Shown here in pieces: positions 365-55,085 of a DNA stretch of 64,000 bases (position 1 is its first letter; every line of letters begins with the position of its first letter). The stretch lies in the NCBI GenBank assembly GCA_916610825.1, contig OU744454.1, positions 1,265,001 to 1,329,000 on the forward strand, read 5' to 3'. A model generated the notes under the pieces. It was given only the letters and a program-made list of their open reading frames with translations, did no database searches and was not told where the DNA came from. The DNA comes from Haliclystus octoradiatus (Eukaryota; Cnidaria; Staurozoa; Stauromedusae; Haliclystidae). The position numbers and the translations under genes are program-made.

Positions 365-2643
365 TGTTATTTTTTGGTGTAAGAACAAACTTACAATTTC
401 AAATTATGGTTAATTTGAATTTAATCATTTGCATTAGACGTTCGTTCTGCTATGTTAACTGCATTTGTCCATCAATAGATCTATTTCGTAGTCTCTATTA
501 CCACATGTGCAATGTCGAATTGTTTGTAACTTCCACGGATGACTACGAAACAATACTTATAAAATATTAAACATCATAACTGGTTGCAAAGGAAAGAACT
601 TTCTCTGATTAATACGTTGTATACAAATGAATAGTCGGCTTGAAATACAAAGACTTATCTACACCATAAGGAATTTAAAACATTTTTAAACGCAGCGCGT
701 ATATCTCTTGATTTTATTTCTAAATTTATTTTTTAAATGATGCCAAAAGTGTTAATATAATGTTTCGTACAATTAATATTATATTGCCCGTTCATGGAAT
801 GTGCCTTTATAATAATATCAAAAGGTCACAATACTATTTCTTTGCTAAATTCCCATAAACCCTTTACGTCATTATATTTATTCAGACATTTGTTCAGAAC
901 ATTTTTATCCAATTTGAGATAAAAAAAATATTTTGCAAGCTATAGGGGGATGGGATTTATATATTTTGACTTTTGCTTTATTTTGAAAATTAAAAATAAC
1001 ATTCAAACCATATATACCAACACGTGGAACTTTTTGAATTACGACATAAAGCAGAGCTACAGAATGGAATTCAAAATTTGCAGGTCGGTCAAAACCTCAA
1101 ATTGATGCCAATGCAAAAAAGTATAACAATTATTCCTTAATTATACTAACATTGAATTGAACAATTCAAGTTTATAATTGAAAAACAAAATATTACATTT
1201 AACTGAGCATAGGGCATACAACACGTTGGTCCAGGATTTAATGTCTATAGGGTATACTTCGATTTTAATTGAGAGGGTATATACTATAGATTGCTTGGTA
1301 TTGAGAGATAATACTATTTGATTAAGTTTGTTTCTCGTTAGTGATTTTGAAAATATATTATACATATGGAAGAACATTACACCTGCTTCGAATGCACATG
1401 TATATTGAGAATCGAGCTTATTTCCCCGCTTATTTCAGCATTGAGTTTACATTTACAGGAATTTCGGGTATTTCCTCGCTAGTACAAGCCTGCATGTATT
1501 ACATTATTGCAATACTTGTATACAAGGGCAATGAACAGCTCAGCGTAGAACTCATTTTGATCCAGCATGGCCGTGGAATCGCCCGCAGTAGTGCTAAAAT
1601 GTAATTTAATGTGTGACTATAGTAGTGTATGGTTTGTACTAAATTGGAATCGGGAAGTCTTCAAGGCACAATCGGCAGCATAATTACGATCGTTGATTCA
1701 GGCAAAAGAAAACATCTTTATAAGAACATTGATCCCAGATCACTATACCGGGAATTATTTCAGAACAAGATATAGAGCGTTTTAATAGGCGTTAAGTGCA
1801 GCTCAATTTGAAATTCCAAGGTGACATATTTTTTTACAGTCTTCACAAAGGCATTACTTGAGAAAGATATTCAAGCTTCTTCAGGATTGGACTAGATCAA
1901 ATGATATTTAATGAGAAAATTATGATTTTGATGATATTTCTTGCTTGTTTGCTTTCGTTTATTCATCAAATGGATTGTCTTAATTATTTATCCGCAAATC
2001 GGCGGGTAATCGAGAAGCTTGTTATCACCGGAGTTACCGGTAAGTGTGTGTGGGTTGTACGGCGGAATGCCCTTGCCGACACGGAATTATGCTGCCAGCC
2101 AATCCATGATCATACCAGGGTTTGAACCCAAGACACTGCGGGCAAAGGTCCAAAAGCCCAAAGCTCAACATCGAGTAAGTGCAATCGACCGACATCATAC
2201 CTTACAGTAGACAGACAACCATTTAATACTGGCTGTAATATGGCTATAATAGCTGTCATCAGTACTGCTCAGAGAACAAAGAACTGACTTCACCATACTA
2301 TCTAGGTCAAGGTGAACTGAGCAACTAGGCAAAGAATTAGTCAATTGAAAATAAACATGTGTCATACCAGAGTGTTCAAAACTATCGAGAAGTACACGGT
2401 GATTACAATATTTGTTATTTGTGCATAGGTCGTCCGTGCATATAGATAAACATAGCTATAGTAACATGGTACTGTTCACGAAAGTCAAATGAAGTATATG
2501 GACCCTGAATACATTGTAACATTAGAATAATGATTATTATATAAAAGTACTGTGTTGTCTCTCTGCTGTTTCAATTTATTGATAGCAGTATCATTTACAT
2601 CATGTATTTTTTCTGAAAGAGTTTTACCCTGTTTGAATAAAGG

Positions 2644-2645
<2 letters not shown>
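365..2645. other. Gene-free stretch, mostly A+T-rich, unassigned
   Basis: No exon with good splice sites and a recognisable product was found. Short open frames on both strands have no family character. Around 2085-2165 there is a tRNA-like block (GGTTTGAACCC) that belongs to the second tRNA-related repeat family also seen near 11.7 and 55.7 kb. Confidence 0.4.
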
Positions 2646-2675
<30 letters not shown>

Positions 2676-3294
2676 CATACATACATGCATACATACATAC
2701 ATACATGCATACATACATACATACATACATACATACATACATACATACATACATACATACATACATACATACATACAGACATACATACATACATACATAC
2801 ATACATACATACATACATACATACATACATACATACATACATACATACATACATACATACATACATACATACATACATACATACATACATACATACATAC
2901 ATACATACATACATACATACATACATACATACATACATACATACATACATACATACATACATACATACATACATACATACATACATACATACATACATAC
3001 ATACATACATACATACATACATACATACATACATACATACATACATACATACATACATACATACATACATACATACATACATACATGCATACATACATAC
3101 ATACATACATACATACATACATACATACATACATACATACATACATACATACATACATACATACATACATACATACATACATACATACATACATACATAC
3201 ATACATACATACATACATACATACATACATACATACATACATACATACATACATACATACATACATACATACATACATACATACATACATACAT
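2646..3294. repeat. (ACAT)n tetranucleotide microsatellite, about 650 bp
   Basis: About 160 near-perfect copies of ACAT/ATAC, with isolated variants such as GCAT (near 2686, 2706 and 3085) and CAGAC (near 2776). The period of four makes every frame open on both strands, which produces long artificial open frames of YIHT or MYVC repeats. These are not genes. The array ends directly against the foldback at 3302. Confidence 0.98.
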
Positions 3295-3299
3295 AGAGA

Positions 3300-3434
3300 G
3301 ATAAAGTCAAAGACTAGACGTTGTCTCAGTTACTCAAAGTCACGAGCGATAGAGAACAAAAATAAGAACCGTCTGATGAGAGCTATCGCGCGAAGTTCTG
3401 AGTAACGGAGACAGCGTCTAGTCTTCGACTTTAT
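3300..3434. repeat. Foldback of two inverted hammerhead-like repeat units
   Basis: The left half (from AAAGTCAAAGACTAGACG) and the right half (ending CGTCTAGTCTTCGACTTT) are near-complementary over about 50 bp each, with a loop around 3352-3380. The right half carries a degraded hammerhead ribozyme core at 3369-3408. The left half looks like a truncated inverted copy of the same unit. Related units lie at 17838-17925 and 35864-35945, all ending in a TTTCTA-type tail, so this is a dispersed family and not a local hairpin only. Confidence 0.75.
3369..3408 (+). ncRNA. Degenerate type I hammerhead ribozyme motif (copy A)
   Basis: Reads CCGT (stem I), CTGATGA (core box 1, 3373-3379), a GAGC-TATC-GCGC stem II with one A/G mismatch, GAA (3392-3394), a very short stem III of G-U type pairs, then GTA and ACGG closing stem I. 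The order and spacing match the hammerhead core. A15.1 is changed to G and stem II is imperfect, so activity is doubtful. It sits inside the foldback next to the ACAT array. Confidence 0.55.
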
Positions 3435-3485
3435 TTCTACCATATACATTATACATACATACTTACATGCATTGTGTTCAATGCC

Positions 3486-3637: not shown

Positions 3638-4864
3638 TCATTGTCGAAGTAACGGATTACGGATTCCAATTTCGGGTGTTGATTGTGGACCGGATCGTAC
3701 CATTCTATTCAATCTCAATTGCTGTATTCGTCTACATTGTTCAACGTTCGCTTCTGGCTCATTCTCCTCAGCGTCCATTTTAATTGATTCCCATAATTTA
3801 AGAAAGTTTGATACAAAACAATATATAGGTAAACCAATTACAACTGCCCCAAGTAAAGTCACAAAACCCCCAAAGAATTTACCCAAATTTGTTTTGGGAT
3901 ACGAATCCCCATACCCCACCGTTGTTATTGTATTAACAGACCACCACATAGCCTCTGGAACACTTTTAAGTAAACTATTAGGGTCCATTCCCTCTGCAAA
4001 GTAAACGAGGCTTGCACTCAAAACGAGAATAATACTTAATATAACACCAAATAGTAATAGTTCTTTTCTGCTTGCATAAAGCGTAAATATCAAGGCACGC
4101 ATACCAGTTGAATACCTCGTAAATTTCATTACTCGGATTATTCTTAGAAGACGAATAGCCCGTAAAGCTGAAAATGTCCCTGAACGTGTCCGTACTACAA
4201 ATTGTAAAATATAAGGAATCAGGGATAATAAATCTATGATATTTAAAGGGGCTTTTATAAAACAACGTCGATTCGTACTGACTAAAATTCTCATAAAATA
4301 ATCTATTATGAACCAAATGTGGCATATATGATCAATTATACGAAATGCTTTCATAGTATTTGGTTGTTTTTGTAAATCTGCTACTGATTCCATACAGCTA
4401 ACAGAGATACTAGCAATTAATGAAATAACGTTAATAACACATATGACTTTTGCACCATTTAATTCGCTTGGCCAATTAAATAAATGCCAGATTGTTCGTC
4501 TTAACCAACCTTCTGTTGGCGCTTTTTCTTCACCTAACATTATATGATCGACGTTCTCCAAATACGATTTACGCTCGCCTGGTTCTCCGATTTTAAAATA
4601 TGTAATTTCCCTTAAAAACTGTGGTTCTGGTATATTATCTGGTTTAATAAGTCTTCCATTTGATTGGTAATAATATAAGATCGAATCAAATATTGATCGG
4701 TTACGATTAATAAAATATTCTTTACGATGGGGATCGTAAAATTGTTCCCGACTCGAAGCCGATCCGAGAAGCGTATCAGGAAAACGCAGTAATGTGCTTT
4801 CGTAAGTTTCAAATCGCAATCCGCTAATATTAAATGTCACTTTGTGGTCGAAAATCTTCGTCAT
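3638..4864 (-). CDS. Shaker/Kv1-like voltage-gated potassium channel, intronless
   Basis: 408 aa in a single exon, starting at ATG 4864. Residues 6-97 form a Kv1-type T1 tetramerisation domain (GLRFETYESTLLRFPDTLLG; EYFINRNRSIFDSILYYYQS). Six membrane segments follow, from about residue 137 to 370. S4 (RAIRLLRIIRVMKFTR) has arginine or lysine at every third position, so it is a voltage sensor. The pore has TITTVGYGDSYP, the K+-selective filter. Two things are odd: S2 has Asp in place of the usual Glu (WFIIDYFMR), and S6 reads GLPIYCFVSNF, so the second proline of the PVP hinge is missing. The protein should form tetramers in the plasma membrane and pass K+ on depolarisation. The family call is secure; the exact Kv1 orthologue is not. 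Lack of introns suggests either an ancestral intronless family or retroposition. Confidence 0.95.
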   Translation of the reverse strand: MTKIFDHKVTFNISGLRFETYESTLLRFPDTLLGSASSREQFYDPHRKEYFINRNRSIFDSILYYYQSNGRLIKPDNIPEPQFLREITYFKIGEPGERKSYLENVDHIMLGEEKAPTEGWLRRTIWHLFNWPSELNGAKVICVINVISLIASISVSCMESVADLQKQPNTMKAFRIIDHICHIWFIIDYFMRILVSTNRRCFIKAPLNIIDLLSLIPYILQFVVRTRSGTFSALRAIRLLRIIRVMKFTRYSTGMRALIFTLYASRKELLLFGVILSIILVLSASLVYFAEGMDPNSLLKSVPEAMWWSVNTITTVGYGDSYPKTNLGKFFGGFVTLLGAVVIGLPIYCFVSNFLKLWESIKMDAEENEPEANVEQCRRIQQLRLNRMVRSGPQSTPEIGIRNPLLRQ

Positions 4865-11800: not shown

Positions 11801-14800
11801 CATTACACTTAGGCATCAGTAATGTAACAGTTAAGCATTTTGATATTGATCTGCAATATCTTGTGTTGATTTCATAACATAATTTTGACATCAACACACC
11901 TATCCTTTAGACCAATCACAAGCAGGTATTTGCTGCTCCCCTAATAAATATCCCATATGGGACTGTTTTACATTGGATAACTTACTGAAGTTGGCTCATC
12001 TTGATCTTCATCCGTACCATGTTTATTAAGGGGTGTTGACGACCCACCAACAGGGACATCAGGTGTTCTTAAAGATTCTGTTGTAATGATTGATTCAAGG
12101 GGAGATCCAATTGGTAGCAACTGTTCACATTGTTTGATTGAGTTTGTACCTGGACGATTGACAAGCTCTTTCTGTAAAACAAAAAATAGATAGTGCAATT
12201 TAACTGAAAAGAGCTGTATAACTGTGCCTCAAAAATCAATGCCAATCAATGCATATAGCATTATATCATGTGATTGGCAAAGTACTAAGCATTTATCATA
12301 ATTAATCTGAGACATTTCTGTAAGAATGTACAAGGGTGGTACAGGATTTGAGGGTAGTAGTATGTACGTGGTAGGTAGTAGGACAATGCAGCCTGTGTTG
12401 CTATTCTGTGTTGCTGTAGGTATAAGTCAAAATCTTCTGGGAATGGGAAAGGCCTGTCGTTGTTTAAGATCAGACAGCACTATCTGAAAAACTATTTGCA
12501 GAATCACAGCTGTATGTGATATTTGATGACTTGCAAAGCCTTTGCATTTGACTTGTGTGTTGATGATGGTTTGTGAGGTGAAGATGAACTAGGAGGGTGG
12601 ATGTGGGTACCCAATAAGAAGGCATTGTCTAACTTTAGCAATATGTTCTAAATCCCTAAATCATACCCTCAATCTTCTCACGAGAGTTCCATATTTCTGT
12701 AGGTCACTTCCTGATTGAATTTGAGTAGCATGATTATCATTCAGTTGAACAGTGTTAAGAAGGACAACTATCATGTCCAATAGGTCTGTAAACATTGAAC
12801 TGAAATGCAAAATAATAATTAATGCATAAAATTAGGTACACAGTCAAACCATCTATAGAACCACCTCTAAACAGCAGCCACCTCTCTATAATGGCCACTT
12901 TGGTAATATTACTAGATCAAATTTGGTATGACCACTTTAGGGAGGATTAGCTCAGATGGCAGAGCAGCCGAACTTCAGATCTGATGAATGTGGTTCAAAT
13001 CCACCGAAGGTCAGCCTTGACTGTATCTAAAACATCAAATGAGTACAATTTTCTGATGACGGATGGAATGGTCGAGAGGGAATTGCATTGTGCATTGATA
13101 ACTGAGGCATATCTCATATCTGCCATGAAGCCTGTTGAAATTGATCTGCAGTGTCGCGGCTGAGATCTATCAAGAGCATGAAATATCATTGTCCTCAGAG
13201 AAAAGATCTACTCTACTATTAGCTCGATATATATATTTCTTTAGTTTCTTGGTTATCAGGATCACAAAAATAGGAAAGGAAAAGTTTCTTGTGCTAAGAG
13301 GAGGGTACCTAGGAGCTGTAATTCTAGAATCACAGAGGTAAAATTTCAAAATTCATGTTTTACAAATGTCAAAGTTGTATTGTACAATTCATGTTTGTAG
13401 AAAAAGTTGGTTTCATTTTCCTGAGATTTCCATTTTCTTTTCTCAACCTAGAAAGAACACAATTCCTTCTATAGGCAGCAAATGTTATTTCTTTCATAGT
13501 TTTACCAATTTTGCACAGAAAAATTGATTTTACCCATCTTTTTAAACAACATATAGTTGAAAAACAATACAAAACTTCCCTATTGTCAAATACTCCTTTC
13601 TCACAACTTTTTTTGACAAATTGAGTTATCACACAATTGAATTGCAATTTTTATTGATTCTTGTTGGTTCTCAATTCCTGTTTTCAAGGAACTCCATCAT
13701 ACGAGAGGTGTCAAACTCATTGCAATTATCATATCATCAAACGTTGACTTACTCAAAAGGTGCAGTCGCTCCTTCAACCACCACGCCGCACACAGCTAAG
13801 CGGAATAATGTCACTGTCCATTCATATATACTCTGTGATGCTTTTTGAATTATATCAAACATTGCACCAACCTAGGACAGATAAAAGTATTGAAAATGAA
13901 ATGAAATGATACGTGTTGGATCATGTATTTTATTTGTCGTATTGTGTTTTTGTGTTTGATGCCATCAAACAATTTCAAGGATTTTTGTTATTGAACGTCT
14001 TTGTCATTTTTTTCAAACCATTTCGCTTGAAATTTATTGAACCCTTTTGATGTTGTGGCTTCTCCATGGCTTCCTTTTAAGCTCAGTCAAGATTCTCTGG
14101 GTTTTTCTAGAATAGTCTTGAGAAAGTCGGATCTATCTTACCGTTAAGGCGCTCTTGATAAGATTGCTTCAAAACACAACAAACACACGTTAGATGAAAC
14201 AGATTTCTTGCGTAAAAGTTTCCATCATTTCCGTTGTCGGCTTAACGCGTGATGACACCAGGCTTTTCATGGTGTTTCTATCATAGCATCATGGGTTCCA
14301 CCTTTTAGTTAAAAATGAAAGACAAAATTCAACTTACCAAATTCAGCCTAAGATGTAAGGCTTCAAGTAGAAAGCTTTGTCCATTTGCACTAGTTGGAAA
14401 CTTTTCCTACGATAAACAAAACATCTCGATTAATAATCAATATTTCGATAGAGCAACAATTTATGTACAAGTTGAAGTCACAAAAAATATTTGAGAGATG
14501 CGAATGGAGTCTCATATATTCATAATGTGACGTGATATATATTTGGTCATACAAATGCATACATATTTGTAAATGATTACAAGTAGGCTAATAATTATGA
14601 CCAGGGTCAACCTGTAAGTTAAGCAAGACTGCTCGTTTTTTTGGGTGATAGCTGCGTGAAAAATGAAAAAAATTGATCAGCAGGCAGGTCAACAAAGTGA
14701 CGTCAATATTTAAATTTTCTCGGATTAATTTAAAAGAGTACATTACTGAGCGGATCGGCATCAAATTTCTACAAATCAGTGTTTTTATTCAATATACATC

Positions 14801-17800
14801 ATAATCAATTATTTATTTGCAAAATATTCTTTTAGTAGACAACAATATTGAAAATTACAAATAAAAAAGTGGTTACCCCATATGGTGCTAATTACTCTGC
14901 CATTGAGGTAACAGTGCATTAAATGATAATCAACAGTTGTCAAATGACTTACTTTACTTGGGGCATTGCAAAAATTTGACAGTTGAGTATGCAGAGAATT
15001 AAGAAAAACATTTTTATTATCATCTTGACCTCGCAGGCAACTGAGAATCAGTGTAAACATTGATTGTTGTGATTCATGGGTGATTCTGAAAATAACAAGA
15101 TTGAAATATTAAAAATCAAAGGAAAGGACAAGTTTTTCTTGAGGATGTTTTGCACAATGTGAATGACATGAGAGACACAACACAAAAGTCCTACAAATGC
15201 AGAACCATTTATAGATAACTTTGTAGAAAACGTTGTCTTACTGATTGAACATAGGGCTCAATGCAAAATATAGCAGAGCTTAAATAATAAAAGTCAGAGA
15301 ATCAGACAATCATGTTTGCTACTTGTTATGTTTGCTAACTTGAAATATTTAACAGTTATTGATTGAAGATGTGATGAATATCGACTGATAATGACTTATG
15401 ACCCTGAGGTCATTATGCCTATAATCATCAAACCTGGGATCAATAACTGGTCAGTTTTGTGATAACTATTCATGACTAAAGGGTTACCACATACTTGCCA
15501 TGTTTGTATTCATATTTACTAAACGAGAAAATATTGGGAGACATGAGTGAAGCGCTAAAAAATCACGAGCTCCGAGCGAGTGATTTTTAGCTTCCCGAGT
15601 GTCTCCTAACATTTTCGAGTTTAGTAAATATGAATACAAACATTTGCAAGCATGTGGTAACCCTTTTCTAAAATAAAACAAATGTCGGAATCTCATTCGA
15701 GGGCGAATTTTCAATTCATGAATTCACAATTTAAAATTCAATTTCAATTCATAAACAAAGCATGAAGAGAATCCCACAACAAGATAGATTTTGTCGAATA
15801 AAGAAAGACATATACAAGAACGTCTGTAATATAAGTGGTACGATAGTTCTTTAGCAAATTAATGCAGTAATTGTTATTTAAATTTTAGGTTTACCTTGAA
15901 ACAGCGTAGCCTATAATTGTCTTTCATTCTGTGTTTTTATTTTGCATGTTACACGACCAATAACTCATTTACCACGCTTTTCGATAAATAAAAACATCTT
16001 GAGCTAAATGTCGTTTTCTAAATCAGAGCCATTATTGAGATATTTATTGGATTGTTATCAAAAAGTTATAAATTCTGTAATTTATCACAGATCAAAAACT
16101 TTTTGAAGCTTGCGGTTTTTCCCGGTTTTCGGAGCCATGTTTTACCCTAGGATTTCATGCACGCTCTTTCGACCAATCAGATCGCAGAAAACCTTCGTGA
16201 TATTTTAGAAATGAGTTTTATGTATTTAAATGCATCATAAACGCAATTATCCGCTGGGTCTTTATGCCATACCAATAAGAAAATCAGTATTGACAGTTAT
16301 ATTAAAATTGTATGTCCTGTCACAAAAATTTTCTATCCCTAAAGTCAGACATGACTACAGCATATCGTTGAAACAATTTATTTGCTTCAAATCATTAAAT
16401 TTATAAAGATATACATGAAATACAAGGGCTTTCACAATTTTTAATAAAAAGGGAAAATATTTAGTTTTGATGGAATAATTATAACCTGAAATTCGTCAAG
16501 TCTGGGAATAGTGCAGTGCAAACACATACAGTTCTTCAACTACCTCTCATCATCTTGATAATTCAGTTTCATGATCCCTTAATTTTAATATTTAGTCATA
16601 CGCTTCATCATTTGACAGTTATTTAGGTCTAATCTGGTGTTGAATTGTATTTATTCTTAGATCAACAACATTTGAGCAGGCATAGAATAAGCATTTTCTT
16701 AGAAATTGTAAGTGGTTTGGACCCAATATTGTCTGTCTTACATAATGTTTACATGAAGAAGCAGAACTTGCCATCAATGAAATTGGCTAATATGAATTTA
16801 GGTACCGGTATATAACAGCCAGCTATAAGAGGTAGATAAATTGACCACTATAGACACGTGGTCTTTATATACAGGTATGATTCAATAGAAAATAGCATTC
16901 TAGACATACAGTCATGGTCACTATGGATAAGTGGCAGCGGTGACCATTATAACAGATTAGACCGTAATTCATGACGTGCTATGACATCAGCGAGGTTTCT
17001 GATGAATAGGTTGACAGGGATGACAAAACAAATATTAAATCAGCCCAACCAAAAATCAAAACATAAAGATGAATCAACATTTTAGAGATTTGGAGTAAAT
17101 AGAAGCAAATTACTTAGCAGAATCTTTCTCGTTCCACCATTTTCCACGTTCCATTTTCTCTGCAGCAGCTTTTAGAATTCTACCTTGAACAGTGACTGGC
17201 AACTTAGCAATCAATGGTCCAATTAGAGTATGTCTATCATTAACAGCATCTTGCGTTGTCTTAGGTATCGATTGAAGAGAAGCTGATTTACTAGTGCCCA
17301 ATAATGATGACATCACTGATCTGGCAACAGCATTTAGGAGACGAGAGATATCCTATTGAAGATAAAAATAAGTTTATTAAAAACAGATAAGGCAATGTGG
17401 CCTGCATAACATAAAAATGAGTGAGTAATTCAAGCAGCCAATAAATAGTTTAAGTATACATCTTTTGATATCTTTATCCTTGTACCTCTAGTTGGTTTCT
17501 ACTAAAACAATAAGACAATTCACCCTTCTTGGCTACCATTGGCAATAGTCATTTTGGAGGACCTCTGTGACTATTCGACCGTAGCCAACTCGTGCTCGTT
17601 GTCTAATTGTTAAATATCTTCAATTGAATAGCTGACATATTTCAAGTCATACCTCTTTTGATGCTTGGAGTATCATCAATTGAAGTTCAAGGTAACAGCT
17701 TTGTAATGACCAATGATCTAAATTCTGGAATCAAAAAATTTGAACGGCTCAACAATTGTCCGTCCACAAGCAATAATGATATTACTTTGTAACTGTTACT

Positions 17801-18444
17801 TATGGTATAGTATACAGTTTTTAATTATTTGAAATAAAAATGGTCTAATGAGAGCTATTGCGCAAAATTCTGAGCAACGTAGACTACCTCTACTCTTTAA
17901 TTTTATATTTCTACATAATTAATTAATTAATGTATAAAAGTCAGTTCAAGTTGTAAACATTTCTCTTACTCTTTAAAATGGTCACAGGCGACGATGATTA
18001 AAACGTTGAGGTTATTTATAAATGAATTCAAAACTCACTGATGCCATTGATTTTTGTAATCAAGTATAAAGATGTAGCACTTTAAATAATTGAATAATCA
18101 AAGGTTTTGAAATCTGTAGGCCTAGTAGTATTGTTATCATATATTAATCTTTGTATCACTTCCTTTGATGTCACAGTACTAATATCGTTAATTCATTGTA
18201 ACTCATGTAAATACCGTCTCTCGACACTTGTAAACTCATTCCTTGCTTGGTGCTCTCACGAATAACATCTAAAATCAATCTGTTGTACTACTATCTCTAT
18301 CCTGCTTACACACAGTGTTCTCATACTATTACAAAATCCTACCTCACAGAGTCGATTAGTGACAGCTTCAAAGTCATCATTATCAAGAGTTGTGGATAAG
18401 TTGTCAACATCAGATGATGAACAAAGACGGATGATTTGCCGTGC
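5890..18444 (-). CDS. MED12: MED12 exons 27-40 (C-terminal block, Q-rich tail)
   Basis: Exons: 18343-18444, 17653-17724, 17114-17352, 14953-15085, 14338-14406, 13753-13871, 12667-12799, 11986-12171, 11345-11606, 10522-10837, 9362-9638, 8917-8962, 8272-8475, 5890-6128. Matches to human MED12: NLDHWSLQSCYLELQLMI (exon 28), PLIAKLPVTVQGRILKAA (exon 29), LILSCLRGQDD (exon 30), EALHLRLNLVGAMFD (exons 31-32), SPWDLLEG and APLSWAAFGAVRIER (exon 35). Exon 36 has a run of about ten glutamines. Exons 36-40 are Q, S and P rich and weakly conserved, like the PQL/OPA-type tail of the family. Exon 38 is only 46 nt; its boundaries rest on phase and splice signals. Confidence 0.92.
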
Positions 18445-30400: not shown

Positions 30401-33400
30401 GTGTTTACGTCATGCTTACATGGATACGCTTATTTATTGGAAAACAAAAGAATCAAAGACCAAGAAGCTCGCATGCTGTATTTTTTTTAAAATGCTGAGA
30501 AAGCTTTGACAGTGAATCATGGAATGTAGATTAGATTTAAGAGGTTAACAAAAAAAATCGACAACAAGGTATGTAGTGTATTTTTATCTACGCTTTTATG
30601 TGAATTTAAAGTTACCCGGACAAACATGCCGATTTAAATCTGTGGCACTTGGTCTATAGCCGTAACTCTCCTTCTTTGTAAACAGCAATTTAGATATACA
30701 TGATTCTAAATAGACTTCACAGCAATCAGCAAATAATAAATTCTGTATTTCAACGTCTATTGTAAATAACAGATAATATACACTCTATACCTTTGTAAGT
30801 TCTTTTGCAGTAACAGGAAATATCTTTTTATAAATTGATTGTAATGGTATTGCGGAATCTGTTTTGAAGAAATCGCTTCTATCCAATACATCCAGAATGG
30901 CCAATGTTTTACCAACTAGAAAGAACAATTATACAACTTATATACAATGCTTACGAGTTCCCATTTATCTGCAAACCTGACTTTGGAACACAATAAATCA
31001 TTTTGTGGTCAAATTCTTGTCAAGTGCAAATCCAGATAAATTTTTGGATAAATGTTTGAATAATAAATTAGCTCCACATATTGAAATTCGACTTGTAAGT
31101 TTTACATACCTTTTGTTACTACAAATTTATTATGGAAAGAATTAATGTTGTACAATGGTGTTTGCATGCCTTTTTTGTATAAGTAAACATCTGTTGATAA
31201 TTGGAGAAGCTAGGTTGTGCAGTGGTTTAAAAACAAAGGTACATATTCTTTAATCGATTCTATCTTCAAAAAGCATCCGATGTAATGTTTTAAAGGAAAG
31301 CTCAGAGGACAAAATGGAGAATTATGGTAGCTGTACCATCTAATGCCTAATGGGCAATTACCTACCTCTTATGGCTGGCTGTTATATACAAGTTTCACTA
31401 GGCTTGGACCTTTTACCTGTTTCGCTTTCTTGATGAGTTGATGATAGCCATTGCCTCTCTGCTGCTCTGCCTCGCTCTTGAATCTTTTCTTCAGCGGTTT
31501 GGAGATTTATCCGCGTCTAAAATGAATTCATTATATGAAAACTTTGTAGTCAGCTATTATCATTCTTTTAATTTCAATATAGACTAAAACCCTTTTATAA
31601 ACTAAAAACAAATCTCCAATGAAGTCTGTTTACAGAAGGTTGTTTGCATTTTGAAGCAAACATTTTAAATTAACTTTTTTACTTACAAAGTCATTGAAAA
31701 CAAAACTTCACAATAGAAGTCTTTCTTAAATGAAGACTACTTTTATTGGCACCGTATTATATCTTTGATAATAATTGTCATAATTTCCTGTTCCTCTTTG
31801 TGTTCTAGCATCAGACAAAACATTGTATCGTCAAATTTTGAGTAGGAATTTCTGAAAAATGTTTATCCTAGAATTTCCAGACAAGTGAACAAACCAATCA
31901 GATAGCAGAGGTCTGATGCATATTTTATAATTTTTGTTAATAAGTATAGATGCATTTTCAATACCTAAACACAAACACAAACACAATACAAAACAATAAA
32001 TAATTACCATAAGAAAATCTTCTCTCTCATCCGTATCAATAGATAACTCCTTTGAGACATGAGATAGCAAAGCACTAGGTGCACATTGCAGACGGTCCAA
32101 AGGAGAACCAAGTACAGACGTACGTACATCTCCTCCACTTTGACTGCTTGATGGATTGAGAATTATTTTTGCGGCACTCCACACTAATGCTGTTGGACAG
32201 CATAATGTTATTGCTTGTATGATGCCACATAAAATAACGACAAGCGACCGATGTTGTTCACATTCTTTATACTCGTCCAGTGCAGATAATACAGGGCTGA
32301 AATCAACGCGAAATACATGTTAAATCCTTTAAGCAACATGCATAAGTTGTTGAATCGACCACTATGGACAAAAGAACTAAGTTGTTCACTAGATCATTTC
32401 AATAGAAGCAATGATTTTTGTACACTGTGTTGCTGATATGGCCACTCTAGACAGGTGGATGTTATAAATAGGTAGTCACTATATTCAGTTTGGCTGTGAA
32501 TATCTGGAGTTTTGTTGCTAACATGGTAGATCTATACCTTGTATTTCTCATGGGTGACATTGGTCTTGCTTCACCATTAGTTCCGTCTTTATCAGCTACG
32601 TTAGCGTCTCCTTGCATTTGTTCTGCTTCTATATTTAAAAGAGTTAATTTTCTTATGCAGCACGTTGAGAGTGACCTGGAAAGTGTCTGGGTACTAGTGA
32701 TTGAGTTCAAATGCTGAAATAAAAATAATAATCAAATTAATATTTTATTTACATTATTATAACACTGTTTATTTTTGATAAATAAATATCGCTTTACAAT
32801 TACTACCCTACAATAAACACGCTGTGCTTATGCAATTAATGTGCTGGGATTCTTTTTTTCTTTCTTACATCTTCTTTGTTAAATGTTATTTATTTTATTA
32901 CTTAAAGCAGACATTAAAGTACACATCTTGAAAATGAATGAAAATTAGACTGAAATTATGACTGACTGACTGAATTTAGACTGAAACAGACACATTTTAG
33001 AGTTTATAAAGGCAGAAAAAAGCTAAAATATGTTTCATCTCTGTTTCACATTTTCATGCTTACTTGTGTCAAAAGTATTATTGTATTGTTTTTACGTAAG
33101 AATGAAATTACTTGTCACGTCGTTCTACTACAAAAATTTGAAAACACAGAGCAGGCAACATAGCTTTACAATTGACCGCTGCTCAACCAATCAAATTGCT
33201 CGATTTCCAAATTGACTTTTTGATCAATGACTAAATATATATAACAGTCATGTATATGATCAAGACCATTTTACTCTATCCCAGTGTTGATTCAATGAAA
33301 TACAGCTGATAAGTTTACAAAAATATTTCTGGTGACTATCAACACTGGTTACAATAATAGTTTATGACTATGAAAACTATGAAAAATAGTATTCGCTTTG

Positions 33401-36400
33401 ATCAATGAAAAGTTACGAAGTACTGTAATTGAAATCTTATAATAAAATGTTGAATAGATATGAAACCCAGCAGCTGTCTGACTAATTACCTTCAGTATAA
33501 GCGGTAAAATGTGTCTAATCAACGCATCATCTCTATTCTTCAATCTTTCCATCAATTCAATCAACCATTTTAGAAACTCCTGCTTGTCTAACAGATTCTC
33601 CTTAAAAAAAGATTAAAACAATTCTTGATCAAGATTCAAGATAAATTCAAGATATTGGACATTATGTTCACTTGTCAGGCTACACAAATATTGTTTTATT
33701 TCCTGTCATAACCAAAACCAGAAGCTTTAGTGCTTGGCTTTTGTATATTGTAATTAAATATGATTCCATGCACGGTTTATAAGGAGAATGAGTTGTCTAG
33801 CATGAGAAATGTAGCGTCAAGCAGACTAACATACTCTAGTAGTTGTGATAACCTTTTTAATAAATGTTTCATATTCTATCAGAGGACATCTTAGCAGAGT
33901 GAAGAAAGTTTCTACATGTAAATTAAGGATAATTTGAAAGAATAATTATTTATGTACGAATCTGTAGTTTTTACCATCATTGTTCTATATATAATATATT
34001 ATGAGTATGAATCTTGTAAATAAGCCTATGCTTGTCTGTTTTAAATTTAAAGTTATGGAAATATTCAGAGGGCCCTGGAGGGAGATAATCCTGACAATTT
34101 ACCAAGTCATCCATGTTATAAATACCGTAAAAGAAAACTAATAACAAAAAATTTAATTATAAAATCCATGGCATTGGAAGGTAGCAATCTTCTCTAATGA
34201 CTGACAAAGGTTTAGCCTTTCAAAATCCTAGAATATTCTAAACTTCTTTCTTCGGCATTTTTTGCTCAAGTTTGGTCTATAAATCATTATCATATCAATT
34301 TTTATTTGAATTTGCCCTAGTCTTCTGAAACCTAGCATTCCAGAATATCGACCCACCTCCATCAGCCAATCAGATAATCGCATACTGTAATTCCATTGTT
34401 TCAATGCAAGCTCTACGTCTGCAGATGGTCTTTGATGAACTACACTAGCATATGGTTGACCGTATGATTCAACCAATCGATTAAGCTGATCTTTCATATA
34501 CTTTGTCAAAACGCAAGTCCATTCTGAAATACAGTAAAACCTGTATATAACAGCCAGCTATTCAAGGCAGATAACTTGACCACTATGAGCAGGTGGCATA
34601 ATTTATATACGGAGTTGATTCAATATAAAACACTGTTTTAGACATTACAACAGTGACCCCTATAGAGTCATAGACAGGAGGTCACTCTATAGAGGTGACC
34701 ATTAAAATAGCAGGTTTGACTGTGTAGAAATTTTATAATGAACTTATAACCATAGACTGGAGGTCGCTCTATAGAGGTGACCATTAAAATAGCAGGTTTG
34801 ACTGTGTAGAAATTTTATAATGAACTTATAACCATAGACAGGAGGTCACTCTATAGAGGTGACCATTAAAATAGCAGGCTTGGCTGTGTAGAAATTTTAT
34901 AATGAACTTATAACCATAGATAGGAGGTCACTCTATAGAGGTGACCATTAAAATAGCAGGCTTGGCTGTGTAGAAATTTTATAATGAACTTATAACCATA
35001 GACAGGAGGTCGCTCTATAGAGGTGACCATTAAAATAGCAGGTTTGACTGTGTAGAAATTTTATAATGAACTTATAACCATAGACAGGAGGTCGCTCTAT
35101 AGAGGTGACCATTAAAATAGCAGGTTTGACTGTGTAGAAATTTTATAATGAACTTATAACCATAGACAGGAGGTCACTCTATAGAGGTGACCATTAAAAT
35201 AGCAGGCTTGGCTGTGTAGAAATTTTATAATGAACTTATAACCATAGACAGGAGGTCGCTCTATAGAGGTGACCATTAAAATAGCAGGTTTGACTGTGTA
35301 GAAATTTTATAATGAACTTATAACCATAGACAGGAGGTCACTCTATAGAGGTGACCATTAAAATAGCAGGCTTAACTGTGTAGAAATTTTATAATGAACT
35401 TATAACCATAGATAGGACGTCACTCTATAGAGGTGACCATTAAAATAGCAGGTTTGACTGTGTAGAAATTTTATAATGAACTTATAACCATAGACAGGAG
35501 GTCACTCTATAGAGGTGACCATTAAAATAGCAGGTTTGACTGTGTAGAAATTTTATAATGAACTTATAACCATAGACAGGAGGTCGCTCTATAGAGGTGA
35601 CCATTAAAATAGCAGGTTTGAATGTGTAGAAATGTTATAATGAACTTATAACAAATTAATTTGGTGTTGATCAATTAAGAAACATAATAACTCTGCGTTA
35701 AGATCTTTTCTATACAAGTATAACTTGAAAGAGTTTGGTACCAGATATATATATATATATATATATTATGAATAATTATATATGATTATGAATAAACATA
35801 TGATAAATATAAATATATGATATCTATTATATAATTATATAATTATATAATAGATTATGAATAAACCGTCTGAAGAGCGTCTTTACGCGAAACTCAGAGT
35901 AACGAACCGAACTCGTAATCTTTGAGTCATAATTTCTATATTGCTCTGCTTTTAGCATTGAGCACTCTCATTGATGTTTTGCCTCACACATTTATAATTA
36001 TATATATATATATATATTAAACATAAATGTTGACATATTGATATTCTGAGAAGTGCCTTTCCCGTTTCTACTAGCAAATGTAGTTAATTCAAATATAAGT
36101 TGAAAGAAAAATAATAATAGACCAATGTATGACGTTATCACAGCCATTCAAAGCTATTTTAATTTTTGTGATTGGCTTAATGTTGCTTAAAAATTAACTC
36201 ATGTCGATACCATGTATAGCACTTATTGTCGTACTGAAAAAGGGTCTATGATAGATTGGGTTGTCCCACTGTGCCTCTATCTTAAATCAGGATTGCATAC
36301 CAAGAAAATCTCTCATCTAACACATACAAGACTATTAAAAATTTCATTATATTCAAGACCAATATTTTTATTTCAAATATCAATCAATATTTACAGATCC

Positions 36401-39400
36401 TAACCATCAATCAAGCAATTAATGAATGTAAATCTACCTTGTGACGGATCTGTTGATGCTCGTTTCTTCATTTTTGACTCAGAAATTGTGTTCTGATAAG
36501 ATGATGTCACCTGAAAAAGATTGCACAGAATTGTTAAGGTAAGTATAATTAGGATTAACATAGACTTAGCGGTGTGACTGGATCTGGTTGGTGATGCCAG
36601 TTATGCTATTGTTCAACTACCTCTCTTATTATGCTGCCAGCCTCCCACCAACCAAAACACTAGACCATATTTTATCATGTTAAGGATTCGAAATAAAAGG
36701 TTTGAAAATATTAAAAATGATCACCCTCTCTACTCTACTTAAGTCAAGTACTGACCTCTCAAATTAAGAACTAAAAACAAGAAATTAGAGTTAGAATGGT
36801 ACCACACCATTGATATATTGAGCGTTTTACAGTTGTCTTTGTGTTTTGATGCCCTAAATATTTTAATTGAAGACAGTGCCAAAACTAGAGTGGAACAATT
36901 CAACTTACATATAAATACTTGAAGAAAACACAATGCAGCATGTCTGTATATCAAAACAAATTCATTACCTTTAAAAACCAAGCTGCTCGATTCATTGGTA
37001 CATTGTGTTCACAAAGACTGCTGAAAATATCTTCTTTTTTGTTAAATATTGGCACCTTGAAATTAAAAAAGTCAGAGCTATAGCATTGATCCCTTATTAG
37101 CAGATTTACTGATTATAGCATTACATCATTACTATTTTTCAGGAGCGCATTTTCAAGACCAAGGACACACAGTCACACATTGCCATACTTCTTGTTCGCT
37201 CTCTGCACAAAAGTATAATTTTTAGAGTGCATTTCTTCCCTTTAATAATTCAATTGTCAGGAGCCACTTTATCATTCATTCCAATGACACCGCTATAAAT
37301 TCTGGCAAACATTTATCCATTCTTTTTTCCAAAGGAATTACAACTGGGAATAGCTTAGTAAACACACACACACATACACGCTATCAATCAAATCAATTTC
37401 AACAAAATTTGAGCAAAAATTACAACACTGGTTGTTATGTGTAGGCCTATTCATTTTGCTATGTCCATCCTGTGGTCATATTTATCTCTACCTTCTTCCC
37501 AAGAATTGATAAAGATTTTGTTTTCGCTAAATCGCCAAGCCAGGCCATGACCTGAGGCTTTGATCTTGGAGTGACCTATAAATAAAAAACAGAGAATGTT
37601 TATTTAATCAACCGATAGATTTAATTCCTATGCCTCCCATAGAAATAGTGAATGTCAGAATAAAACAATAAAAACATTGATAATAATACCATCCAAAAGT
37701 TTTCTTTGTTGACTTGCAATTTCTTCTGTGTGTTATCAAGAAATGAATTATTCTTTTCTTTTTGTAGCTGAATGCCATTGTATTGTACTGCAAACTGAAC
37801 AACAAAAATAACAACAATATGAAAACATCTCATGTCGAATCATTTCATTTTTAATCTATAGGAACTTGAATAATAATTGTTTGTATCATCACCTTTGATA
37901 AATTGAATGAGGAAAACAATTCCTTTGCAGAACCAAACTATCATTAAAAAAAACAATAAAATGATAACAAAAGGCTTCAAACATCATCAATATGTTTTAC
38001 ATTGGTAGATTAATGTTGGGACTGCAAATATTAAACAATATAATTCGAACAGGCACATTTTTCTAAAGTTTAAAAGTATTCTTAATCCATAAATGATTCA
38101 TAAAGTTATTAATGAAACTGAGTAGGAGTTGCATAAGGATGAAACTAATCACTCTTATATATAAATAAGGTCATTTTAAATTGCAAGCTTGACCAAGAAA
38201 ATTTACAGTAAAATATTTGCATGAACTTTCAAGGCAGAATTATGTGGTCGCAGGCACCGAAATATGTTTTCAACCTCTGATGTTTTACTGTTTGGGTGGC
38301 AACCTCAACATTTTAGATAAATTGATGATTGGAATGAAGGAAATACAAAACACAATCTCAAAGATTGTCTGTGGAAGCATGCCCCCTCCCGATCACAGAG
38401 ATCGCATCTTTGATGCCACTCGATCGGGGCTTCAGATTGGTATGCCTTTATTGTTCTTAGTTGTGTCAATAAAACACTACATAAACACTCTTCAATTAGT
38501 CATTCAAAATGAATTTGAATATCATGCTTCAGCTATGACAAAGAGTAACCCGGGCAGACAAGAACATTGCTTAGAATCATGGTTCGACGATTCAACCTTT
38601 TCTAATATCGAACAAAAAGTATGATAATTCACGACCGATATTGGACAATACATGTGATTGTAAGATTCACAGGAAAGGATTTGTTGAAAACGTAAAGATA
38701 TTTCTATTTTATAAATCAAGTAGTAAACACTTTCTCGTGCAGCATGGGTTCAATATAAACACTCAGGTTGTTATGGGGCACTCAAAAGGCTTTACGCTTT
38801 CCTTGCTCCCCATGACGTAACACTTGTGTTTATATAACCTATATTGCACAGAAAGTGTTTAAAAATTGAATAGGCTAATATGAATCAGGATATTTACCTC
38901 ATTTGAGATGGCGGGCGGGTTTGCAAAACCTCTTTTGACGCTAGTTTCAGACAAGTCATCCTGAAAAAAATTCATTCTGTTATTTCGATACAATGTGAGA
39001 GGAAGCTCAAACTTAGCCTGCGTTCATTCGCAAAAGAATAGGTTCTGTGTGACTTGCGCAGTTCTCTGTCCAGCCACTTCTCAAAAACCTAGAGCGGAAG
39101 TTTCTGATCGATGCATGGTAAAGCTATTGTTTTTAGTGAATAATTTTGTAGTAATAATCACCTCTGTTCGATCAATTAATTGTCATAGCTACGAAGCCTA
39201 AAATAGAACTTATTGCAATCATGTCAACTTAAGTAAAAAAAGTAATGTGAGAATCCCGGTGAGATTCATCTTAAACTTGCATAATTATGTGACATTAATC
39301 TTATTCTGATACAAGGCCTGGACAGAGAAATCGAGCAATTCACACAGACCCTATTATTTTGTGAATGAATCGCGGTCTGTAACGCAGGCTAGCTCAAACT

Positions 39401-52222: not shown

Positions 52223-55085
52223 ATGAGCGTCGGATTGACGAAAAGCCGTTCCCACGGCAAACCAAAACGAAGAGAACTTGCAGAAGAGCAGAAACAAGAA
52301 ATCAGAGAAGCTTTCGATTTATTTGATACGGACAAAGATTCTGCTATTGACTATCATGAACTCAAGGTACAACGTTCTAGAGGAAATGCTACAAACACTC
52401 AAATCATTCTGATACAATTTTTATAATTATTCAGCAGTTCACAGAATCACAGCTCCCCTCTTCAGAGTCTACCCAATATTTAATTTTCGATTTTAAAATT
52501 TGTAGGTTGCCATGAGAGCTCTTGGTTTTGATGTTAAAAAGCAAGATGTTCTGAAAATACTACGAGACTACGATCGTGATGCAACTGGGAAAATAACGTT
52601 TGATGATTTCCATGAAGTCAGTGAGTAGCTTGAGCCTGCAGACAATATTTATAGGTTACCTGAAAAATAACACATACAAGGAGATCTAATTCAGTCAGTG
52701 TTGAATGGCTCGTGGTGCGCAAAAAGATTATAATAAATCATTCTTAAGGACTAGAGATAACATGCGTTGATTGTAAGAAAATCTAGGCAGGTACATCTTA
52801 ACAAACATAATCTTTCTTTCTCACGTCATCATGTAGTTATCACTGTGGCTTTCTTGCTTTCATCATCAACTCCTATAGCCTATAATTAGCATACTTGGTA
52901 TCGATTTCAAACTTGATTTATGTGTAGATTATAAAAAGTGATTCTCACATGGATTACACGTGGACGTAATAATAATATGAAGGATTTTTTTTACATTTAT
53001 GATACAAAGTGGTTAGAGCATTGAGGTCCGGTCGCCGAACACTTTATTATTTTTGGTAAAGGTCTAGTTGTTCATTAGCCTGCATACCATCCCCAAGGTT
53101 TTCTGAAACCATAGGGTCTGTGAACTAATGTGTGATTCTCAGCCCAGCGAAAATAGCACCTGTATAAATTTGGTAAACTATTCACACCCCAATTCACACG
53201 CGGTCACAAAACATCTATTGTCATTAAATCACAACTCTTCGTCAATCACGACATAGTTGTCAGCCGCGATAATACGACTTAATGCATAAATTATATTCCA
53301 AACTCATGGGAGCTTGTTGGGCTGAAAATCACACATTAGTTCACAGACCCTATGGTTTCAGAAAAAGCCTCAGGGCTGGTACACAGGCTAGTCGTTCATA
53401 TTATTCGCATGCGCTGAATATATTTCAATGCCAAAGTTCCCATGCATCTCACTTTTGCTGTTATGATCTTTGTGATCGGTTTATTTTGCATTTTCGCGAC
53501 TTCATCATGTTATAAATAATATGTAGGTTGAATGTATATTTGCTGTTATATGATTGATGCAACCGGTTTGTGGAAAATTGATAAATCCAGAAAAAAAAAC
53601 GCAGCATAAAGTAGCTACGAAAAAATGGTCAGAAGATTGTTGGATTAAAATTGTGTAGGCCTATTTAATGCAATCCCATTTAGAATATTCATCTTATATT
53701 TTGTTGCTTGTTTTGTTTTCCCGGGCGCGGAATTTATAAGATTCTCGATAGGTTCACACCTAGATCTAGACCAAGCAAAGTCAAATAGCATGTGTTTGAT
53801 AATTAATCTTAATCTCAATCTTAATCTTACATGTCTTCTTCTGTCTTCTGTTTCAGTGACAGACTGGATGCTTGATCGCGATCCACAAGAAGAGATCTTC
53901 AAAGCTTTTCGATTGTTTGACGATGACCAGACGGGTAAAATTAGTATAAGAAATTTAAGACGTGTTGCTAGAGAACTTGGTGAAAGTATGACAGATGACG
54001 AATTAAGAGCAATGATTGATGAATTCGACAAGGATGGAGACGGTGAAAGTAAGTCATGTGACAAAATTGCAAGTTTCCATAACCTATAACGTTTTAAAAT
54101 GTAATTTGATTTCAAGTAAATCATCAGTTTTACACAGGGACTGTTTGCAATGTGTGTGCCGCAAATCTATCATCTGTGTAGTAGTCTAGTCCTGTAGCAA
54201 AAAACCAACCAATCATACATGACTCTTCGACTGGTTGATTGACTGGTAGACATGAGACACTTTGAATATTAGATCGTTGTTGGAAATACTGGTAGTCTAA
54301 AATTATTCACTATGATATCCTGATCTGATGCAGACATCGGCATTATTGTCAGACTCATTTTGCTATTGTAAAAACTCAGATAGAAATAAAAAGTGACTGG
54401 AAGTCAAGTTACCATACATACTTTTTAATTATTTTTGATTCTAATCAGTTCAGAATGTCATCAGTAAATAGTCATTTTCTGCTTTGATCTGATTGTGGAG
54501 ATCTTATCCTTTGGATACTCTGCGAAAAAAGTTTGTGAACCGGTTTGTTGTGTTTTTTAGGATTCTACCCTTGTGAAAACAGTTCAGAAATGGCCTAATT
54601 TTCAGGAATAATTGATGAATGGTTTATGAAAGATAGGCCATTTTACATTCATGAACTGTCTGTTTATAAGGTGTTCATGAAATTTTGTAAAGTTCATGAA
54701 CTCAAGTACCTGTAATTTGTTTGCAGGGGTTATACATGTTGTTGTTAAACATATTTTGATTACCTCGTAATATTGTGAATTGTCTTTAAGTTTCTTTGTC
54801 AGCTATGCCTGACCGTGATTTGTGGCGTTCTTTGTATAGCAAATATGTAAGGCGTAAGAGGGACGGCACATCCCTATAATGTGACTGTCTATACTACTAC
54901 TACTATATCTGACCGTGATTTGTGGTGTTCTTTATTATAGCAAATATGTAAGGTGTAGGAGGGACGGCACATTCCTATAATGTAACTGTCTGTCTATACT
55001 AATGTACTATGATTCTTATAATGCTCTTATTCTTGTTGCAGTAAACACAGATGAATTCTTGGCTATAATGACAGGAGATACATAA
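52223..55085 (+). CDS. CETN3: Centrin-3
   Basis: Four exons: 52223-52366, 52506-52620, 53857-54048, 55042-55085; 495 nt, 164 aa (human CETN3 is 167). Four EF hands: [12 protein letters not shown] (canonical, residues about 37-48), [26 protein letters not shown], and DKDGDGEINTDE. Landmarks are [39 protein letters not shown] and [11 protein letters not shown], close to animal CETN3. A Ca2+-binding protein of centrioles and basal bodies, needed for centriole duplication. The true start is ATG 52223; a GTG 15 nt upstream is in frame but not used in animals. Intron 2 holds a 316-bp MITE, and intron 3 ends with a 100-bp tandem duplication. Confidence 0.97.
53076..53391. mobile_element. TAGCCTGC-ended MITE, 316 bp, with 9-bp target duplication
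   Basis: Left end TAGCCTGCATACCATCCCC, right end ...TGGTACACAGGCTA, with TTTTCTGAAACCATAGGG and CTGTGAACTAATGTGTGATT mirrored inside. Flanks are GTTGTTCAT and GTCGTTCAT (53067-53075, 53392-53400), one mismatch. Same terminal type as 39014-39391. In centrin intron 2. Confidence 0.88.
54540..54735. mobile_element. GTTCATGAAC-rich palindromic element
   Basis: CCCTTGTGAAAACAGTTC at the left and TTGTTTGCAGGGG at the right are inverted; inside are TTCATGAACTG, GTGTTCATGAAA and AAGTTCATGAACTC, plus a mirrored AATGGCC/GGCCATT pair. Same family as 21400 and 59752. In centrin intron 3. Confidence 0.7.
54809..55010. repeat. 100-bp tandem duplication before centrin exon 4
   Basis: CTGACCGTGATTTGTGG begins at 54809 and again at 54909; both copies continue with TATAGCAAATATGTAAGG and GAGGGACGGCACAT. 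A few percent divergence. It ends about 30 bp before the exon 4 acceptor. Confidence 0.88.

Follow-up and report, generated by a model that had tools for sequence, protein, structure and literature searches.

Minimal type I hammerhead ribozymes have reportedly been found in Penelope-like elements (PLEs) by Cervera and de la Pena (2014) and by Lunse et al. (2017). According to the accessible parts of the sources, such ribozymes have a short or absent helix III, are located in the pseudo-LTRs (pLTRs) of the elements, occur as thousands of dispersed copies and show no canonical loop-loop contacts (PMC6155905, PMC7761336). In the case of Poseidon of Anolis carolinensis (PAc), the available text describes that both strands of AT-rich target DNA are cut and extended at two adjacent internal start sites, the stretch between these sites forming a tail; the PAc hammerhead does not cut without the protein and is dispensable for insertion in vitro (PMC11167929). 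In the case of Adineta vaga Penelope, the available text describes head-to-head pLTRs, a tail on one pLTR and target duplications of 8-10 bp, and its authors proposed self-priming on an antisense template (PMC3846280).

Here we analysed a window of 64,000 nucleotides of Haliclystus octoradiatus DNA, in which an initial annotation had marked a type I hammerhead. With a probability of roughly 0.83, we read this feature as a solo pLTR of a recently active PLE, for which we propose a cycle with a hammerhead at the RNA 5' end and two start sites of insertion. It resembles the minimal hammerheads of PLEs in its short helix III, its location in a pLTR, its many dispersed copies and its lack of canonical loop-loop contacts. 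It differs from them, as far as the accessible parts of the sources go, in its inferred position at the RNA 5' end, in insertions that end at the cut, and in a helix III of 3 bp with a 3-nt loop in most parsed copies (PMC6155905, PMC7761336).

The minimal hammerhead core was located on the plus strand at 35866-35905 by a descriptor scan and by stem changes between subfamilies. It consists of the stem I 5' strand CCGT (35866-35869), CTGAAGA (35870-35876), stem II GCGT/ACGC with the loop CTTT (35877-35888), GAA (35889-35891), stem III ACT-CAG-AGT (35892-35900), A17 (35901) and, after the predicted cut between 35901 and 35902, ACGA (35902-35905). The CUGANGA, GAA and NUH core and the three stems are in register, as the initial annotation had described them with these coordinates, and its minimal type I form with a 3-bp stem III is likewise seen in the sequence. 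It had also called the ribozyme intact-looking, which was somewhat generous: the fourth stem-I pair is lost because ACGA replaces the ACGG of the family unit. With a 3-bp stem III and a 4-nt loop II, no matching loop-loop contacts could be recognised by eye. When 100 first-order Markov simulations of 64 kb were scanned on both strands, no match was obtained with at least 4, 3 and 3 bp in stems II, III and I, one match with 3, 3 and 3 bp, and four with 3, 2 and 3 bp; in the real window, 35866-35905 was the sole match at every setting. On the basis of these simulations and of the genome-wide excess of the pattern described below, a chance motif was rejected.

The Rfam hammerhead models, a check that had been suggested for this ribozyme with the absence of a hit named as a refutation, gave no match in the window and two sub-stretches, neither at the gathering cut-off nor at E values up to 10. 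Weak Rfam microRNA and snoRNA matches near the three hammerhead copies of the window were rejected, as they track the palindrome or the ACAT repeat. Folding gave a free structure of -18.8 kcal/mol for the window copy, compared to -6.5 kcal/mol with the hammerhead imposed (-17.9 and -9.6 kcal/mol, respectively, for the subfamily named A), and the unconstrained fold was the more stable one in all four subfamilies folded as well as in the window copy. This is in line with the PAc hammerhead, which cut only with its protein according to the available text (PMC11167929).

BLAST of the 397-bp family unit placed the whole element on the plus strand at 35854-36003 (q197-346 of the unit), a solo pLTR from the inferred RNA +1 to the second putative reverse transcriptase (RT) start site, and over these 150 nt the window copy shares 99.3% identity with the unit. 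The limits given previously (35866-35945) were thus too narrow, and TTTCTA, taken then as the end of the repeat, is one of two recurrent 3' ends, and the element continues past it to 36003. Within it, a short 'no-tail' form (35854-35941, plus strand) comprises the hammerhead and a side hairpin within an outer stem ATTATGA/TCATAAT and ends at putative RT start site 1 (TTTCTAT), as defined by the 3' end of partner copies at q284 and by the fold with imposed hammerhead. The remaining 62 nt (35942-36003, plus strand) form the 'tail' between the two putative start sites, as defined by copy ends; site 2 runs into (TA)n, and at 25 exact places in the genome the tail reads through into the leader of an open reading frame (ORF). 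To the left of the element lie A+T-rich filler without a recognised partner arm (35767-35853) and target-like (TA)n (35741-35766), and the A+T microsatellite context pointed out earlier is supported. We read the window element as a one-sided insertion that covers the stretch between the RNA start and site 2 and adjoins (TA)n; its left target end was joined without a recognisable partner arm. The copy starts exactly at +1 and thus has no promoter of its own; without an upstream TATA box it cannot drive itself. Lacking the promoter and one stem pair, it is probably dead.

The element sits among exons of MED12, all on the minus strand. Segments matching solved MED12 were found on both sides, at 34228-34557 (residues 184-247, E 0.00091) and 36954-37112 (residues 132-162, E 2.3e-05), and further away at 17110-17352 (residues 1423-1456), and a Med12-LCEWAV domain match lies at 31831-32319; an exon-like stretch picked by eye at 36403-36600 had no MED12 match. 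The element is therefore intronic, as initially annotated, and antisense to MED12, so that the ribozyme could not act in MED12 pre-mRNA; an element owned by MED12 was rejected because of the opposite strand. This intron also contains an array of about twelve 82-bp tandem repeats (34587-35706), 95-100% alike in its middle part, immediately to the left of the element.

To place the element in its genome (262 Mb, 33 contigs), a loose pattern CTGANGA-N-GAA-N-GTAACG was searched, which gave 659 + 671 = 1330 matches compared to 61 + 63 = 124 for the reversed pattern. The window element has at least 39 further copies that are 99% identical to it across 141-143 of 143 nt; two arrays account for 22 of them, and the number 39 is a lower bound because 40 of 1038 candidates were scored. 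Between subfamilies, both strands of the stems change together, stem I occurring as CCGT/ACGG, CTGT/ACAG, TTGT/ACAA or TTGC/GCAA and stem II as GCGT/ACGC, GCGC/GCGC, ACGC/GCGT or TCGC/GCGA. Among 60 distinct core-anchored sequences, stem I was paired at 72.5% and stem II at 77.9%, in both cases above all 2000 shuffles (maximum 70% each), which ignore sequence relatedness, a factor that inflates such counts. The two inner pairs of stem III (75.8%) did not exceed the shuffles (maximum 80%) in the same set. A U.U at the first stem-II pair was present in 20 of 54 sequences. Altogether this confirms 35866-35905 as a type I hammerhead and a member of a dispersed mobile family, and further copies with a kept core and compensatory stem changes, the second check suggested at the outset, do exist.

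What did not hold was the description of a small stand-alone repeat, since the element is the solo pLTR of an autonomous retroelement with an ORF. At locus L063 this ORF is carried in two overlapping frames of 603 and 312 aa and flanked by two direct element copies 2788 bp apart, and L075 holds two open 702-aa frames head-to-head. At least 63 matches of the family ORF were obtained in the genome (the best 63 of 3346 candidates, 56-100% identity), of which 48 had, by eye, open frames of at least 702 aa without a stop. The ORFs carry FDIENxYP, LYRDDG (YRDD), a cysteine cluster and YIGLTEG..FKxR..H near the C-terminus; we take the FDIENxYP, YRDD and YIGLTEG..FKxR..H motifs to be those of a PLE-type RT with a GIY-YIG endonuclease. 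Pfam recognised the family ORF neither as RT nor as GIY-YIG, and a PDB sequence search, BLASTP and whole-protein hhalign did not support a PLE identity. Split profiles were compared with L096, which Pfam identifies as a clear PLE in this genome (RVT_1 1.9e-10, GIY-YIG 0.00012); the family ORF was colinear with it over the catalytic motifs, but the match was weak (E 0.012 for the endonuclease part and 0.059 for the RT part, in single comparisons with hhalign probabilities below 4%). By tblastn, a 55-residue match to a GIY-YIG hit had an E of 0.012 among six short loci. No relative was found when viral contigs were scanned with the ORF alignment. As in PLEs, the pLTRs of the family contain a hammerhead, occur both as direct and as inverted copies and may or may not have a tail. 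Thus, from the architecture and the weak profile similarity, the window element is read as a solo pLTR of an autonomous family with an ORF of about 700 aa that belongs to the PLEs, and the initial comparison to Penelope-like elements fits on these two grounds, with Pfam negative. The Pfam-positive L096 represents a second PLE clade, in which a CTGAAGA...GAAA hammerhead-like string is found on both sides of the ORF, at 446 and 3054, a spacing of 2608 bp.

Upstream-extended copies allow the RNA start to be predicted. Of 13 such contexts in subfamily A, 10 have a TATAAA whose first base is 32 nt upstream of the left end that the copies share; in subfamily B, TATATAT lies about 33 nt before the left end in two of four. 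The common left end (+1) is thus probably the RNA start, with the predicted first base that of ATTATGAATAAACC, and given this TATA spacing the hammerhead would lie at the 5' end of the RNA. Folding with the hammerhead imposed gives a domain that starts at +1 with the outer stem, followed by the hammerhead and the side hairpin. The outer stem is ATTATGA/TCATAAT in A and has another sequence that is still paired in B and in the L094 subfamily; for subfamily A', the same kind of folding did not predict it.

The ends of the copies follow a defined pattern. When full-length elements and locus edges are set aside, the right ends of subfamily-A copies fall into two groups, q281-287 (TTTCTAT) and q346-351, and we read these two recurrent 3' ends as RT start sites. 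Many copies continue leftward into upstream element sequence; in the 17 without such continuation, the left end was at q193-197 in 12, at q180-186 in four and at q161 in one (counted by eye from BLAST of the unit, with arrays and repeated loci left out). Strict head-to-head palindromes number 115 genome-wide (control 0). We read 29 of them, namely 20 chosen by eye from 50 listed places, seven in L064-L074 and two in L022; the palindrome of L032 was left out of the count as one of its arms is truncated by the edge of the locus. Exactly one arm carries the 62-nt tail in 28 of the 29, including L074 and L082, where the tail breaks off early, and L081, where the second arm has about 18 nt of tail. 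If arms were independent with a chance of one half, at least 28 such cases would have a P of about 6e-8. The exceptions noted were L076, which has no tail and one truncated arm, and L111, with no tail seen on either arm.

The same pattern emerges when exact subfamily-A patterns are counted genome-wide. There are 37 ends without and 95 copies with a tail, and a tail copy lies within 6 kb of 23 of the 37 no-tail ends, divergently in all 23, and of none of the other 14; no pair of two no-tail ends was found within 6 kb. (TA)4 adjoins the no-tail arm in 22 of 27 palindromes (21 by script and L065 by reading). Target-site duplications of about 7-11 bp were seen by eye in L078 and L091 only, being not resolvable inside (TA)n. 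At the centre of many palindromes the arms overlap in a short palindrome, or a small stretch of the arm end is repeated, which is what microhomology-mediated end joining accompanied by local copying would produce. The one-tail pattern looks as if both target ends had been primed on one RNA at two start sites, and the present ends fit such two-ended priming better than self-priming on an antisense template.

Two further copies within the window had been proposed as diverged relatives, and sequence comparison bears out their homology to the element (3369-3436 and 17838-17925). The first belongs to an older palindromic copy of another subfamily at 3300-3436, beside an ACAT microsatellite. Its right arm holds the hammerhead (core 3369-3408), in which CTGATGA, GAA, GTA and a 4-bp stem I are kept and stem II has an A.G mismatch; the left arm is inverted and lacks the 5' half of the hammerhead, and a tail was seen on neither arm, as far as readable. 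The second is a decayed single arm on the plus strand with CTAATGA, AAA and GCA, and judged by these letters its hammerhead is dead in three core places. The long ACAT-type microsatellite (2485-3304), with open frames on both strands, ends at the palindromic copy at 3300. A single-exon Kv-type potassium channel gene of 408 aa follows at 3638-4864, with a sub-threshold Rfam K_chan_RES match inside it (32.8 bits, cut-off 51). Other repeats of the window include dispersed copies with the end TACAGTGAAACCTGTATATAACGGCC in both orientations, several between 16804 and 62002, which look like a DNA transposon family, and tRNA-like repeats (GGATTAGCTCAGATGGCAGAGC...) at 12938, 45634, 62872 and other places, which are probably a SINE family. 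Two foldbacks lie outside the hammerhead family, at 53099-53365 (48-nt arms, 98% complementary) and at 15500-15643 (54-nt arms, 85% complementary).

Beyond simple palindromes, the family forms two tandem arrays with units of 397 bp (C7) and 352 bp (C2). Both are mirrored, with minus-strand copies on the left and plus-strand copies on the right, and their units consist of the element, the leader and the first ORF codons (47 and 32 codons, respectively). Among exact subfamily-A patterns, divergent tail-tail pairs are restricted to the inside of these arrays, and the outer ends of each array are one tail and one no-tail. Beside the 352-bp array, another foldback hammerhead subfamily was seen (L062, record C2 13912000-13912450), with stem I TTGT/ACAA or TTGC/GCAA and a U.U at the base of stem II. 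It is quite conceivable, if not what we would expect, that the mirrored arrays arose from later unequal recombination rather than from copying of a circular or multimeric RNA at insertion, and the near identity of the units within an array would agree with this. However, the two arrays differ in unit type (352 and 397), within an array both arms are built of the same type, and the outer ends follow the one-tail pattern of the simple palindromes.

Some insertions end at the predicted cut. Exact counts for subfamily A with the same downstream anchor were 144 for CGG, 143 for ACGG, 135 for AACGG and 130 for GAGTAACGG, with all controls at 0. Thus, one copy is lost just before the bond, eight at the bond and five over the next four bases. 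This amounts to 8 ends at the predicted cut against about 1.2 per neighbouring step (6 over 5 other steps), an approximately sevenfold excess, with a Poisson P of 3.7e-5 for 8 events at the baseline of 1.2 per step; P is 2.5e-4 for 7 events, as L107 supplies two, and 0.0015 for 6 events, with L112 and L113, which have a common junction, taken as one. Seven of the eight could be located (L107 twice, L108, L109, L111, L112 and L113), and all seven are head-to-head junctions starting at ACGG and not point mutations. Among the five later losses, L106 also begins at ACGG if the preceding A is the partner's, and L110 looks mutated. L112 and L113 are separate palindromes with the same junction, in which the tail arm stops at ACTCG and the other arm at the hammerhead cut.

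The genome-scale cut-site count covers subfamily A only. In subfamily F, one of 28 bodies has a cut-site junction, namely a nested palindrome (L077, 100-240) whose arms are joined at the cut predicted for F, separated by a single base; no such junction was seen among 29 bodies of A', 28 of B, 5 of D and 4 of D' in the loci examined. The numbers of bodies given here contain repeated loci. About 6% of the counted subfamily-A copies end at the cut; therefore most templates were uncut, and judging from these copies uncut RNA is the main template, most copies running past the cut, as found in vitro. The excess of ends at the predicted cut among sister insertions suggests that the ribozyme works in living cells.

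An unlikely but serious alternative is that the hammerhead is a structural landmark bound by the RT and not a ribozyme, so that the ACGG ends would be RT stops or chance microhomology joins. The short arm of subfamily A indeed spans exactly the extended hammerhead, i.e. the outer stem, hammerhead and side hairpin domain, the competing fold is more stable, and cleavage was not needed for published PLE insertion in vitro, as far as the available text describes it (PMC11167929). On the other hand, the peak of the ends is a single position that lies within stem I and coincides with the predicted cut, whereas a stop caused by structure should come ahead of stem I and not once its 3' strand had been copied; in addition, in a second subfamily, F, one junction falls at the cut predicted for it. 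The accessible parts of the literature already document hammerheads, tails and inverted pLTRs in PLEs (PMC6155905, PMC7761336, PMC3846280, PMC11167929). The footprint of in vivo cleavage in insertion ends appears to be new, as a literature search, with most subscription papers outside its coverage, found no paper describing insertions that end where a PLE hammerhead cuts.

With these ends in hand, the locus can be compared to the individual systems. As in PAc, the hammerhead lies close upstream of two internal RT start sites, the tail is the stretch between them, both strands appear to be cut and extended, and the targets are AT-rich. The tail, however, is 62 nt compared to 30-40 in PAc, and the hammerhead lies before the first ATG, whereas it overlaps the ORF start in PAc. 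The one-tail pattern per insertion sets the present family apart from what the available text reports for PAc, as do ends at the cut site, of which there were none in the PAc RNA-seq reads described there (PMC11167929). With Adineta vaga Penelope, the family shares direct and inverted pLTRs, head-to-head palindromes, an optional tail on one inverted pLTR and perhaps short target duplications; it differs in its (TA)n targets, going by the accessible part of that source (PMC3846280).

The tandem 397- and 352-bp units with a type I hammerhead are of retrozyme size, the window copy being single, and resemble in this respect the tandem 170-400 bp units of animal non-LTR retrozymes as the available text presents them (PMC7229834). 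The differences from those retrozymes are the minimal instead of canonical hammerhead, the mirrored arrays, and units that are visible internal deletions of an ORF-bearing element (PMC7229834, available part). It is very improbable that the family is a stand-alone non-LTR retrozyme, a small ribozyme circle linked to PLEs by a borrowed enzyme only: the size of the mirrored units would fit, but they keep the pLTR, the leader and 32-47 ORF codons, and ORF-bearing copies are flanked on both sides by the identical pLTR type. A MITE-like foldback DNA transposon with a chance hammerhead-like sequence would account for the palindromes and TA-rich target sites, but was rejected as next to impossible in view of variable palindrome centres with unequal outer ends (28 of 29 one-tailed), single arms, an RT-like ORF in the family and 1330 against 124 pattern matches.

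The preferred PLE reading therefore leads to a possible cycle, built on what can be read directly from the copies, namely how they are structured, their two kinds of 3' end, their palindromes with the one-tail pattern, the spacing of the TATA box and the accumulation of 5' ends at the predicted cut. Firstly, transcription from the TATA promoter in the pLTR would begin with the first base of the hammerhead domain. The ribozyme would then form the 5' end of the RNA, and cutting, which we infer to occur in vivo, would remove the first 48 nt together with the cap. Secondly, the RT-endonuclease of the element would presumably cut both strands of (TA)n-like DNA, and each target 3' end would prime cDNA at one of the two internal RNA sites that lie shortly after the hammerhead, site 1 giving no tail and site 2 a tail, normally with one site per target end. 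Both cDNAs, probably templated by a single RNA, would run to its 5' end, which is the start site if the RNA is uncut and the base following the cleaved bond if it is cut, and would be joined head-to-head by microhomology. Priming at a downstream pLTR could give longer and full-length copies, and repeated copying the mirrored tandem arrays.

In its full form, we put this forward tentatively and at somewhat less than even odds: the hammerhead would be the capped 5' end of a PLE RNA that is cut off in living cells, leaving a 5'-OH template for insertion; one RNA would be copied from two fixed sites, one per target end, with cDNAs meeting head-to-head; and mirrored retrozyme-like arrays would result when the same ribozyme makes the template circular or multimeric. 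Whatever its details, the one-tail pattern and the mirrored arrays constrain the insertion mechanism of PLEs. If the proposal is true, minimal PLE hammerheads would gain an activity in vivo and a place in the cycle. It would also show how a retrozyme can originate from a PLE. The 352- and 397-bp units have the appearance of a PLE that internal deletion has reduced to a repeat of retrozyme size. Insertions ending at the predicted bond would then be an independent, searchable record of germ-line cleavage, one that could be counted in any animal with active PLEs.
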